Source: Salminus brasiliensis (lineage: Eukaryota > Chordata > Actinopteri > Characiformes > Bryconidae). From it: a DNA stretch of 64,000 nt. How positions within the stretch are numbered: the first letter of the stretch is position 1; every line of letters begins with the position of its first letter. The notes beneath the pieces were generated by a model. The model was not told where the DNA came from, ran no database searches, and saw only the letters and a program-made list of their open reading frames with translations. Position numbers and translations under genes: made by a program. This document shows, one piece after another, positions 38,665-63,343 of the stretch. The stretch covers positions 31,418,133 through 31,482,132 of the forward strand of contig NC_132879.1 in NCBI RefSeq assembly GCF_030463535.1, given 5' to 3'.

Positions 38665-41600
38665 TTAGTATTTGATCATGTCATTAGTGATGGTGTCTTC
38701 CTCCTGTAGATCCACTGTGATTTTCTTACCCACCAGTTTAAAGATATTCTCAGGTGGTATTCCTTGGGGTTCTGCCACTTTCACTCCCAGCATGTCAAGG
38801 GTTAACTCCGTACCTTTCTGCACTGCCTTCTTTGCTATCACCGACTTACCCAGCTGGAACCAGAAAAAATAATGATGTCAGCTTTTGCACATGTAGTGTC
38901 CTCACTGCAGTCCAAACAGACATGGTTCTTATTAGTGCTAAAACAGTTACAATAGTGGAACCCATACTATTCATAATATATGAACCTATTTTTAAAGGGT
39001 TCAAGAAAGACCCATCTTTTTTCCATTTTTTAATGTATGGCTACAATGATAATATATCTAACAATAGACTCAACTGCGAATTAAACTAGCAACTAACTAA
39101 ACTAACTAAACAACTAAAATAACACAAAGACTTCAAACATTTGTTGGCCGACTGGAGGTATTTAGGCTAAACATAGAGGTTCTTTTTCACATGGCCCTTT
39201 GTAGCACAATTATTGTTTAACAGAGGAGTTTAAATAGCCATTTACACCTAAGGTGATAGCTGGTCATTTAGCAGCTCATACTTAAGATCTAAGTATGAGT
39301 ACTAAGTACTAAGGAAGTGTTCAAAAGTGCATGTTGATATGATTAATGGAAAAGGGGTAACAGTTGAATCGGGATTACCAGAAAAGGACAATGGAAGCAC
39401 AGGTTTTGCTACAACAGTGACCTTGCAGACATGTTTTTCTCAACAAGACCAATAAAGCTACTGTAAAGACTGACCTTGCTATAGCAGGAGGCTTCGCAGG
39501 GCAGCATCTGTTTGACCGGAGAGCCCTGAGCAAGCTCCACTGTCCGAATCTCTTGCACCAGCGCTGCCAGCTCGGCTGGCTCTAGAGATGCTGCATGGTC
39601 ACTGCCCTTCCAGCTTTTGTCTAGGGTCACATGTCGTTCCACAACCTTTGCCCCCAGGGCTACAGCAGCCACAGATATGCTGATGCCTCCTTCATGGCCC
39701 GAGTAGCCGATCGGAATGTCAGGGAATTCCTTCTGTAATTCCTACGTTGGAGACGAACAGAGAAAACACAGAGTCAGAGAGGGACAATTGCCCATATTCT
39801 AGTGTGGTCTGTTGTATATCGACTGCTACTTTTTAAGCATGCTCTGCAGGGGAGAAACAGACGTTTTATGCTGAAGCATGCCTGAAGCAATTTTGGGTCA
39901 AAAGCACAACAGTAGAAGCCAGGGGGATAGCAGGGACAAAGAAGTTTAAACTAGTTTTGAGGGATTTCTTGGCTTAATTAGATCAAACTATTATCTAGTA
40001 ATAGTTCAACATCCCCAAGGCCCTGCTAGAGCATTCATCCAGCACCTTGAGTTCACTGTGCAACATTCATTGTATTACCCAAAGACAAAAACTCTTCTAT
40101 TCATATATACTAGCAGACTTGTTGAGAATGTTAATAGGAATCGGTGAAGGACTCTTACAGTGATGACTCGCAGGTTGACGTGCTCTGTGGACAGTGGATA
40201 GGCGCTGGTGCACTGCAAGAAGGTGAAGTTTGGGTTGTGCTTCTTGACCGTTTGATAAACGTAACGCATGGTCTCCATAGACTGCATACCACTGGATATC
40301 ACCATGGGACGGCCTAAGGACAACAGTACACCTGCTAAAGTGATCTTATGCACCTTTGTTTTGCCCTCACTAGAAAATAATAGGGTGGGTAAGCTTACCT
40401 TTCTTGGCAGTTTTCTCCAAGTAAGGGAGGTTATTGGTGTCTGCTGAGGCCACTTTAAAGAAAGGCACGTTGATCTCATGCAGGAACTCCACAGCCATCT
40501 TTGAGAGACAAGATACAGAGCCTGTTTGAGGACTGTTTTACATTTAGCTACCCTTTCCAACTTCAACTCAAGACTTAAGACGTGCATCACATCAGCGTGG
40601 CCACCTCCAGAGTGACCACTTCCAGCACAAGGTAAAAGCTCTGACTGCCTAATCTAACAAACTTCACACTAACGGAGCGGCCCTACGATGACGTCAGAGA
40701 TTCTCCTAAGGAGAAAGGACAAGGCTAATTCAACGAGGACTTTTAATAATTATAAATATAATTTCATAAGAACATAACGTGCATAAATTACGCTTTAAAA
40801 ATGTGAAAAGTAATTGTTTTAATTAAACGCAGTTGTAAATACTGTTTAGCCTCCAGCTATTATATAAATAAGACACACCAGACCTATTGAAATGAACCTG
40901 ATTTGCAATTGCCAAAAAAAACAAAAACAAAGCAAAAATAATAAAAAAAAAAATACAGATTAAAATACTGGTAAGACATTAAGGTGGCAATCATTTCGGC
41001 TCTCGTTCCTCACCTCGTCCATTCCTGAGGCAGTGAAGAAAACTCCTACTTCTCCGGCGAACTGCTGCAGCTCCCTGTACTGTTCATGACTGAACTCTAG
41101 ATGGCGCTTGTGCGCTCCGTATGTTCTTCCCCAGGAATGAGGCGAGTTGTAGGCGCGCTCGAGCGCACGCTTAGTAAACCGGTGCTCGAGCTCGCTTTTC
41201 TGGAACTTCACACAGTCTGCTCCACAGTCCTAGGTGGGTGGGATGTGGAGAAGGAGAGAGAGAAGGAGGAGGAGGAGGAGGAGGAGGAAGAAAAGCAGAT
41301 GTGAGAAAGCATATGACCTGAGGGATGGGTTAGGCAGTCACTATCAGAAACTGGAATGTGCAAAGTGATGTGAACTAGGACAGAGATGAGGAGAGTGACC
41401 ATGCACTGAATGCAGTGGGTGAGTACTGTGAAGGCCTTGTGTAATGATATGGGCTTTGTTATGGACTGCAGATGTGTGTTACATTCATGACAATTAGGAG
41501 ATGCTCTTATCCAGAGCAACTTACCATAGGTTGGAATCATTTCATGCAGGTAGGTAAATGTAGCATTAAGAGTCTTGCCCAGGGACTCTTATGGGTGTAG

Positions 41601-42091
41601 TGTGGTCTGCTTGCCTGGCAGAGAAATCAAACCCTAGTCTGCCTCAGGGAAGGCAGTACTGTCACCCACCACACTACTCCAACCATCATTTTACGGCAAT
41701 GATTTGTGTAGAAGCCTAATAGGAGTTGGGTATATTGCATGACATGTGCCAAAGACAACGCTCTTCGCAAAGCTGACCTCCGTCTAGGGTTAACGAAAGC
41801 TGTTCTTATTAGTTCTTGACCAGTTCATTCTTGCACACATCATTTTCTACAAGGCTAATAGTACAAAAGCTAACGTAACGATAAAGTCAAAACTACATTT
41901 ACAAGCTGTTCACTGCTAACAACACAATAATGTTAAAACTAGCTTTTCCACTACAATACCTTTGCCATGCGAATCATTTTCTTGGCAATCTCAATGTCCC
42001 CTTGGTGATTCTGACCAATCTCTGCGATGATGAAACAGGGGTTGGAGCCCCCGATCCTTCTTCCTGGACAAAGTTCAAACTCGGCAGACAT
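38665..42091 (-). CDS. nans: N-acetylneuraminate-9-phosphate synthase (sialic acid synthase)
   Basis: NANS condenses N-acetylmannosamine-6-phosphate (or mannose-6-phosphate, giving KDN) with phosphoenolpyruvate in the cytosol to make a 9-phospho-sialic acid. Six minus-strand exons with GT-AG borders join in frame: 42,091-41,960; 41,229-41,014; 40,498-40,399; 40,313-40,159; 39,741-39,475; 38,853-38,665 including TAA. The product has 352 residues; human has 359, and the difference lies in the C-terminal tail. The start ATG at 42,089-42,091 aligns with the human N-terminus (MSAEFELCPGR). A NeuB-type TIM barrel spans about residues 20-280, with the metal-binding His217 (GYSGHE) and His238 (VVERH), and GSDH at 247-250. 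A SAF/antifreeze-like domain spans about 290-350. Intron 3 is only 85 bases. Introns otherwise hold no gene; intron 1 carries a SINE and a purine microsatellite. Residues 131-136 read KVASAD, where human has KVGSGD. I cannot tell whether this is fish nansa or nansb. Confidence 0.96.
41240..41296. repeat. purine (GGA/GAA) microsatellite in nans intron 1
   Basis: GAGAAGGAGAGAG runs into GGAGGAGGAGG repeats and a short GAA tail, just upstream of nans exon 2 in the direction of transcription. On the transcribed strand it is a CT-rich tract and serves as a long polypyrimidine stretch before the exon 2 acceptor at 41,230. Confidence 0.85.
41469..41695 (-). repeat. tRNA-derived SINE in nans intron 1
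   Basis: On the minus strand a tRNA-like head (TGGTGGGTGACAGTACTGCC, then a B-box-like AGGGTTTGATTTC) lies at about 41,690-41,625. A body with CCTGGGCAAGACTCTTAATG follows, and the tail is GTAAGTTGCTCTGGATAAGA then GCATCTCCTAATTG. The tail is the same type as that in the composite element at 28,070-28,490, so both belong to one SINE group. Confidence 0.65.
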
Positions 42092-42175
42092 CTTCAAATT
42101 TGATTGTGCATTAGCTTTGAGACTTTGATCCCGTACAATGAGGTCCTCTTACTACAGAGTCACGCTAACTGAAGG

Positions 42176-61506: not shown

Positions 61507-61850
61507 TCTGGATACACCTATCACAAATTCTGTTGAATGAGACTTAACACTACCTTCTTTCTTCATCTGGGTCCAACGGAACTGATGCCTCCGAACCGCA
61601 GCAAACACGTAGTTGTAGCCCTCCTCAAGAATCATCTTTAATGCTTCCTTGATGTGGTAAGGGTGCAGACATGGAGACGTGGCCTGGATATGGCACACAA
61701 TGTCCACCTCTGAAAGACAGGGCAAAGGTTTGAGTGCTACTACTGGTTCAGTACTGGTTAGATAATAGCAATATAGCATATGTTTATATATGAAAGAAGA
61801 GCACAACAGCATTAATGTAATAATGTAATAATGTACTGAAAACATAAATC

Positions 61851-62280
61851 TGACTGGGGAACAGTTTTACAGGAGGTGACATAGTGGATCCTGTGTGGCA
61901 CAGCCATCTAAGCGTTGGTCCTATCATCAGAAGATCACCCGTTTGATCCCCAGTGATGCTACAGCCAGAATCTACAGTTAAGCAGTTAGCTCCTCTGAAT
62001 GCATCCAGCTGTCAGATGATGTAAAATTTGAATATGCACTTGGCTGGTGTCATGCTGGTTTCCCAGCACTGGTAGCATGTAGCTACTGGGCGGGGATTGG
62101 AAATGACTAGGAAAATGGATGAGAGTATCTTCTCAATGTAAGGAATGTATTCTACAAGCATGTGTCTAATCATTTTGGCAGGTTGACAGATCAAAATGTT
62201 AGGCTCCCTATTGGACCCTAACATATTTAGCTCTGATTCTAGCAGCCCGTTTGGCCTTTGAGTTGTCTTTCTCCACTTTA
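61851..62280 (+). mobile_element. SINE insertion in intron 2 of the cmas duplicate
   Basis: This segment is not in the intact copy. A tRNA-like head with A-box-like GTGGCACAGCCATCTAAG and B-box-like CGTTTGATCCCC lies at about 61,893-61,961. A body follows that ends GGGCGGGGATTGG ... GGAAAATGG near 62,118, as in fish tRNA-derived SINEs. The rest to 62,280 is unassigned. The same SINE group appears at 5,460-5,876. Confidence 0.6.
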
Positions 62281-63343
62281 TTACTAAGCTGCACAGTGCA
62301 CTGCTGGTCTCAATGAAAGTACCTGGCCTCAGTTTGAGGAACTCCTGGATTGTGTCAAGCGAGCTGGAGGAATCTTTGGAGACCTCAGGACTCCGGCGAA
62401 TCACCTGAGCTCCCCAGAGTTTGGCCACTCTCTCAATCTCATCATGGTCTGTAGACACCCACACACTAACAAGCAAGCAAACACAGCATCACAATTCGGT
62501 CGCACTTTTTAACTGCATCTACAGCAAACATCTAAACAGTCAGATACAGATAGCAAGTGATACTCTGTGAGCAATGAAATCTAAGTAGCATATGAAAGGG
62601 TGTGTAGTGTTGATCTTTATATCTTTTTGTGTCCATAAACTCAAACTGCCTCTTTAATACATGGTAGCAAGCTGTGCAAGGACTGTCACAGTGCACTTTA
62701 TAGTGTTGCCCTTATAAACACAACGCTACACATTTGTAATGGGACTATGAGGTCAACATGGGTTTGCTACATGAATTGCTGTATCATACACATACAGTGA
62801 AGCACTTTACACAATGGCCAAACCTTTAAAAAAGCTATTAAACACACATTTTAAAGTTTCAACAACACAGATGTGTCCAAGGTTGTCAAAAGATGCATCA
62901 TCAGAAACAACTGTTAGAAACTGTTATCTCAAGATGACCAAGCAACAGATGGTAGGCTTAATATTGACCTGGGATGGCTCACTGAATCTTTTTTAATATG
63001 ACCTTCCTCAATTTGCTGTTCATATGGCAATAAACCAGACAAGTAAGGTTTTATTATTACTAGTGTGCACTGCCTGCTTTGGCAATGTAGTGAGTACAGC
63101 AGTCACATGAAGAAAAACCTGAAATTGTACTAACAGCCTACCTGTCCAGGAGCTCTGTGTCCAGGGCTGCTCTCAGAACCCATCCAATCAGAGGAACTCC
63201 AGCCAGGACCTTGATGTTCTTCAGGGGGATTCCTTTGCTTCCCCCCCCCTAGCCAGAATAAGAGCTGCTTTGTGGAGATTTTTTACTTTCCCTTTGGAAG
63301 TATCTTGATTTTGACTGTCTTCTGGTCTCACACCGTTCTCCAT

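Follow-up and report, generated by a model that had tools for sequence, protein, structure and literature searches.

Linked paralogs of nans and cmas, and a broken second cmas copy, in the fish Salminus brasiliensis

Two linked genes and a broken duplicate

The window analysed here is a 64 kb stretch of the genome of Salminus brasiliensis (contig C2, NC_132879.1; C2:31,418,133-31,482,132), in which a sialic acid synthase gene (nans) lies close to cmas, the gene for the enzyme that activates sialic acids with cytidine monophosphate (CMP). Positions below are in window numbering unless contig C2 or C28 is named. We find that both genes are intact and that their linkage is real in this assembly, that a second cmas copy next to them is broken, and that the linked pair consists of derived paralogs. 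The first-pass annotation of this DNA had placed nans and cmas about 12 kb apart on one strand, and this is borne out: the two intact, spliced genes, which we call nansA and cmas copy A, lie head to tail on the minus strand with a spacing of 11.8 kb (Table 1). It had also seen a second cmas copy directly upstream. A duplicate is indeed present there, but it is not a working gene.

All five introns of nansA have GT-AG boundaries, and the frame is open throughout its 352 residues. The predicted protein has the make-up of a NANS, with a NeuB catalytic domain (Pfam, 4.8e-80, residues 39-277) followed by a C-terminal SAF, or antifreeze-like, domain (1.7e-6, residues 294-351). Copy A has GT-AG at seven of seven introns and an open frame of 420 residues. 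Its catalytic domain is recognised by Pfam as CTP_transf_3 (3.9e-37) and carries the KRPRRQDW motif, as expected for a CMAS. In the alignment with the N-domain of mouse CMAS (PDB 1QWJ, 7.3e-101), 155 of the 227 positions are identical (68.3%), and the mouse residues Gln141, Arg199, Arg201, Arg202, Gln203, and Tyr216 are all retained. Residues 243-408 match the mouse C-domain (PDB 3EWI, 4.3e-30) and several HAD phosphatases. By these PDB matches, copy A also has the C-terminal HAD-like domain; Pfam, up to an E of 0.001, listed no family of the HAD type.

The matches of the duplicate, copy B, to exons 1-3 and 6-8 of copy A span 63330-59000, and no real match to exons 4 and 5 was found in copy B. 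Since the two lost exons total 229 nucleotides (134 + 95), which is not divisible by 3, their loss shifts the frame, and it also removes the KRPRRQDW motif. In exon 1, copy B has nine G where copy A has GGGGAGG, that is, two extra bases in a run of G, and the exon 1 frame, read from 63343, reaches a stop after 40 residues. The coding end diverges from that of copy A beyond a common lysine codon. Copy B therefore lacks the complete frame with catalytic exons of a working CMAS and is best read as a dead local duplicate of copy A. A sequencing error could account for the shift in the G run taken by itself, but less easily for the missing exons. Since copy B is broken by the loss of exons 4 and 5 and by the exon 1 frameshift, an arrangement of two working tandem cmas genes is ruled out.

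In four aligned blocks, excluding the non-aligning stretches and flanks, copies A and B differ at 35 of 3,265 sites (1.07%), with 10 indels. The differences by exon are 6/182 in exon 1, 0/143 in exon 2, 4/156 in exon 3, 3/172 in exon 6, 3/166 in exon 7, and 0/180 in exon 8. The longest identical run, 838 sites, was equalled in 0.1% of 5,000 shuffles, a test picked after the pattern was seen, and clustering of this kind could have other causes. This patchiness suggests gene conversion between the two copies, acting on an older duplicate.

Table 1. Features of the window (window numbering)
Feature	Position	Strand	Description
nansA, intact	38665..42091	-	6 exons, 352 residues; spliced open frame, Pfam NeuB and SAF
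nansA exons	42091-41960, 41229-41014, 40498-40399, 40313-40159, 39741-39475, 38853-38665	-	
Interval between nansA and cmas copy A	42092..53882	.	no further gene recognised; no N; codon-usage scan, Pfam of two transposon open reading frames
Tc1/Sleeping Beauty-type transposase fragment	48136..48336	+	HTH_SB 3.9e-20
Tc1-like transposase fragment	51814..52410	+	HTH_Tnp_Tc3_2 9.4e-13, DDE_3 1.5e-11
cmas copy A, intact	53883..57919	-	8 exons, 420 residues; spliced open frame, CTP_transf_3, PDB 1QWJ/3EWI matches
cmas copy A exons	57919-57738, 57061-56919, 56587-56432, 56175-56042, 55932-55838, 55124-54953, 54560-54395, 54097-53883	-	
cmas copy B, broken duplicate	58995..63343	-	matches copy A exons 1-3 and 6-8 only
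Copy B site replacing the exon 4-5 stretch of copy A (55819-56385)	61231..61506	-	dissimilar, microsatellite-bearing sequence in pairwise alignment

Paralogs elsewhere in the genome and surroundings of the pair

The whole assembly (1.066 Gb, 103 contigs) was searched for nans, cmas, gne, clathrin light chain, and complexin, and the counts of candidates and matches given below come from these searches. NeuB matches occur at two loci only, the window and contig C28 (nine candidates scored, eight matches). The gene on C28, nansB (C28:1,017,045-1,021,177), is complete like nansA; the two proteins are identical at 275 of 352 residues, and exons 1-5 are equal in coding length. There are three cmas loci: copies A and B, and cmasC, a further complete gene on the plus strand of C2:38,643,755-38,650,504, 7.2 Mb from copy A (10 candidates scored, nine matches at E up to 1, seven over the cut-off). 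Identity between copy A and cmasC is 62.8% (258/411), and cmasC is identical to mouse 1QWJ at 161 of the 227 N-domain positions. The equal coding lengths of exons 2-7 in copy A and cmasC show that the two genes were duplicated at the DNA level and that neither arose as a retrocopy. Synonymous divergence (dS) has reached saturation, near 1.91, in the cmas pair and in the nans pair alike, while nonsynonymous divergence (dN) is 0.295 between copy A and cmasC and 0.145 between nansA and nansB; these values look as they would for old duplicates under constraint. Saturated dS and equal exon lengths together indicate that both paralog pairs arose by old DNA-level duplications.

The neighbours of the other genes suggest which members of each pair are the derived ones. 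The C-terminus of abcc9 (SUR2B, 6.5e-16), kcnj8 (PDB 7MIT, 1.1e-160), and cmasC lie in a row at C2:38,630,928-38,650,504. We take the kcnj8/abcc9 site to be the neighbourhood of human CMAS, and cmasC therefore probably occupies the ancestral cmas site and copy A a derived one. The gene gne, identified by PDB 4ZHT (3.6e-81) and by its Epimerase_2 and ROK domains, was found on C28 only (two candidates, two matches). Its last exon ends about 2.8 kb upstream of nansB on the same strand, and gne, nansB, and a clathrin light-chain gene follow one another on one strand at C28:1,004,792-1,022,521. With the second nans beside gne and cmasC beside kcnj8/abcc9, it is the extra nans and cmas paralogs that the window holds. 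The earlier statement that NANS and CMAS are linked thus stands as far as the linkage goes, in this assembly, but the linked genes are, more exactly, paralogs of the two. Each nans gene adjoins another enzyme of its own pathway on the same strand, copy A in the case of nansA and gne in the case of nansB, and this adjacency may be an old arrangement, the result of selection, or a coincidence.

A cmas gene close to nansB was also considered. None was found in C28:980,001-1,060,000, which covers 37-39 kb on each side of nansB, 6.3 kb of it N, and C28 is without cmas matches in the whole-genome search. Near the gne-nansB block, C28:987,283-993,549 reads as 6,267 consecutive N, possibly a gap, and the flank at C28:1,033,957-1,057,453 carries repeated exons that we take, from their sequence, to be scavenger-receptor-like (SRCR). 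Comparison of C28:980,001-1,060,000 with C2:31,398,133-31,522,132 gave only nans as a strong match (best 1e-39). Common neighbours of the two nans loci are unsupported, since the best match other than nans is 2e-8, from short or repeat-like pieces. Clathrin light-chain matches occur on C28 and C12 and not on C2 (six candidates, two matches). For complexin, whose C28 gene is a neighbour of gne, 20 of 22 candidates were matches, which include C2 at 17.2 Mb and five other contigs. An old paralogy between C2 and C28 is possible, though not in the vicinity of the window.

The window contains no N and hence no assembly gap. This includes the 42-53 kb region, where a scaffold misjoin had been named as a concern; a gapless misjoin could escape notice without reads. 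The 184 kb that surround the pair (C2:31,368,133-31,552,132) were scanned with a home-made codon-usage method, which genes can escape; it gave many weak segments and recognised no further certain gene. Five weak candidate exons compared with Pfam gave no family above the cut-off, and a weak coding segment in the interval, at 46991-47113 (+), had no Pfam match. An inverted pair of segments, 21185-21763 and 52076-52650, which are 86% identical, flanks nansA, and the second overlaps the open reading frame of the Tc1-like transposase. Just beyond the window are two 61-base runs of N, 4.6 kb apart (C2:31,487,355-31,487,415 and C2:31,491,989-31,492,049), each close to a copy of one repeated segment. 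A CpG-rich segment at C2:31,512,083-31,513,333, about 30 kb past the window, is possibly the start of an unrecognised gene.

Predicted roles of the linked pair

What is the function of the extra paralogs? Zebrafish has a nuclear Cmas that prefers N-acetylneuraminic acid (Neu5Ac) and a cytosolic Cmas that prefers 2-keto-3-deoxynononic acid (Kdn), according to the available parts of PMC9630641 and PMC6220181, and the latter part also reports two cmas genes in Otocephala. The N-terminus of cmasC, MASAKRREQ...SKRMRLDG, has two basic runs that are absent from copy A, whose N-terminus has no basic nuclear signal, as expected for the cmas2 type. The available text of PMC2901514 gives Ile124, Tyr227, and Leu228 as the pocket of murine CMAS for the N-acetyl group, and states that three hydrophobic residues seem to be required for the preference for Neu5Ac over Kdn. 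At these positions, numbered by the 1QWJ alignment and cross-checked on Gln141, the residues of copy A are Ile, Phe, and Lys, and in cmasC all three are Leu. The lysine in place of Leu228 in the N-acetyl pocket may point to weaker Neu5Ac binding by copy A. The N-terminus and the altered pocket of copy A would both suit an enzyme of the kind described for zebrafish as cytosolic and Kdn-preferring. Judging by sequence, copy A is most likely the fish cmas2 type, and hence probably largely cytosolic and Kdn-preferring.

The protein encoded by nansA has the motif KVASADTNNL where that of nansB has KVGSGDTNNF, a change from GSGD to ASAD. The same motif is variable among PDB relatives (GSGE, ASFE, ASYE, and ASCD, in five alignments of 16 matches), so this change may affect the choice of substrate, although it is a weak pointer.

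We suggest a model in which the nansA/cmas2 pair would be extra paralogs serving Kdn, and gne and nansB with the cmas1-type gene would serve Neu5Ac; taken as a whole, we consider that this could equally well prove right or wrong. The protein encoded by nansA would make the 9-phosphate of a nine-carbon sialic acid, the phosphate would be taken off by a phosphatase whose gene lies elsewhere, and the copy A enzyme would charge the dephosphorylated sugar with CMP. Mannose-6-phosphate can enter the same pathway and yield Kdn (available part of PMC9630641), and nansA could supply copy A with Kdn from mannose-6-phosphate without GNE. The gne-nansB pair on C28, together with cmasC, would make CMP-Neu5Ac. 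Copy B would be a local duplicate that died and still has conversion-like tracts in common with copy A. In zebrafish, the organs with the highest cmas2 expression seem to be the richest in Kdn (available part of PMC6220181).

Several observations weigh against this model. The use of mannose-6-phosphate by nansA is weakly suggested by the GSGD to ASAD change, and an alanine at the first position of this motif is also found in bacterial relatives. Copy A keeps the internal KRPRR cluster, which is presumably part of the nuclear signal of mouse CMAS; that signal is said to include residues needed for activity. With KRPRR kept, copy A may still enter the nucleus. The complexin paralog on C2 of the C28 gene is 14 Mb from the window, and co-regulation of nansA and copy A finds no support here. 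In addition, cmasC too is without the murine Tyr227, so it may also use Kdn; a Kdn-preferring trout enzyme is likewise without Tyr227 (available text of PMC2901514). The trout enzyme retains the leucine that is lost in copy A, for which lysine at this position has no tested precedent.

A stronger version of the model, that teleosts have two physically separate modules, gne with nansB for Neu5Ac and nansA with cmas2 for Kdn, whose adjacency was selected for joint expression in Kdn-rich tissues, appears unlikely to us.

Origin of the linkage and comparison with known systems

It is quite possible, though we lean away from it, that these are ordinary paralogs which came together by chance in a gene-poor stretch, that their nearness has no function, and that both enzymes do general Neu5Ac work. 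The absence of any other certain gene from the scanned 184 kb and the transposon pieces between the genes agree with this, and at a spacing of 11.8 kb a shared transcript is not expected. However, random placement of two nans and two cmas loci in 1.066 Gb, with copies A and B counted as one locus, would give only about 1.2e-4 nans-cmas pairs as near to each other as these, and the other nans is also beside a pathway gene, the gne-nansB proximity having a random expectation of 2.4e-5. Both figures are post hoc, as any two enzymes of any pathway could have drawn notice. The linkage could instead be old, a remnant of the nans neighbourhood of an ancestor that lived before the teleost genome duplication or soon after it, and could have persisted without being selected for. 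We hold this to be possible but rather unlikely: the saturated dS and equal exon lengths of both paralog pairs speak for an old origin, whereas nans is the only strong match between the C2 and C28 nans regions, the clathrin light chain has no match on C2, and cmasC and copy A are on one chromosome.

A third explanation is an artefact of assembly, such as a haplotype duplicate or a misjoin, that would have created copy B or joined nans to cmas. Heterozygosity in some fish reaches the range of about 1%, within which the difference between copies A and B falls, and runs of G, such as that at the exon 1 frameshift, are common sites of sequencing error. The window is free of gaps, however, and copy B has its own flanks, two lost exons, and dissimilar inserts, which jointly are unlike a simple haplotype duplicate, so that we regard an artefact as quite improbable. 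That copy B still yields a useful shortened product or RNA would accord with the AG and GT that flank the exon ends it retains; given the early stop in exon 1 and the shifted frame and lost motif downstream, we would be very surprised if it did.

No report of nans-cmas linkage was found among the titles and abstract openings of the matches listed, in a search that mostly covered literature outside subscription. The parts available of PMC13214540, PMC5000683, PMC13032017, PMC3449122, PMC10225777, PMC6200933, and PMC5811610 do not mention it, and that of PMC8636478 places medaka cmas on chromosome 18. A scan of bacterial and archaeal contigs with copy A as a single-protein query, which reaches close relatives only, found no relative; six stretches fit a pattern, but none of them was one.

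These results bear on how the supply of Kdn stays apart from that of Neu5Ac. If nansA and copy A are a dedicated, linked, Kdn-preferring pair, deleting this one locus could give a fish line that lacks the Kdn branch. A nans gene beside an enzyme of its own pathway at each of two loci is, in our judgement, unusual for vertebrate metabolism, and is easily checked in the fish genomes already at hand. The finding is ordinary if the linkage does not extend beyond Salminus brasiliensis.

In bacterial sialic acid operons, the genes are in the order neuB-neuA, and the likeness to the window is that synthase and CMP-activating genes are side by side. Here, by contrast, each is a vertebrate gene spliced on its own, the two are 11.8 kb apart with transposon pieces in between, and there is no sign of a shared transcript. 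Human and mouse NANS and CMAS have the same domain make-up as the window genes. Human CMAS is on chromosome 12. Human NANS, which has six exons as nansA does, is apart from CMAS on chromosome 9 (available part of PMC13214540), whereas the paralogs described here are 11.8 kb apart. Within this genome, the gne-nansB-clathrin light chain block on C28 is alike in that nans and the enzyme gene beside it belong to one pathway and share a strand; the partner there is gne, which acts one step before nans, whereas the partner in the window is cmas, which acts two steps after. The zebrafish genes cmas1 and cmas2 (dreCmas1 and dreCmas2) offer the likeness of two cmas types in one fish. In Salminus brasiliensis, one cmas has a basic N-terminus and is at the kcnj8/abcc9 site, and the other is without it; the zebrafish pair, as far as the available texts describe it, is divided into a nuclear enzyme for Neu5Ac and a cytosolic enzyme for Kdn.

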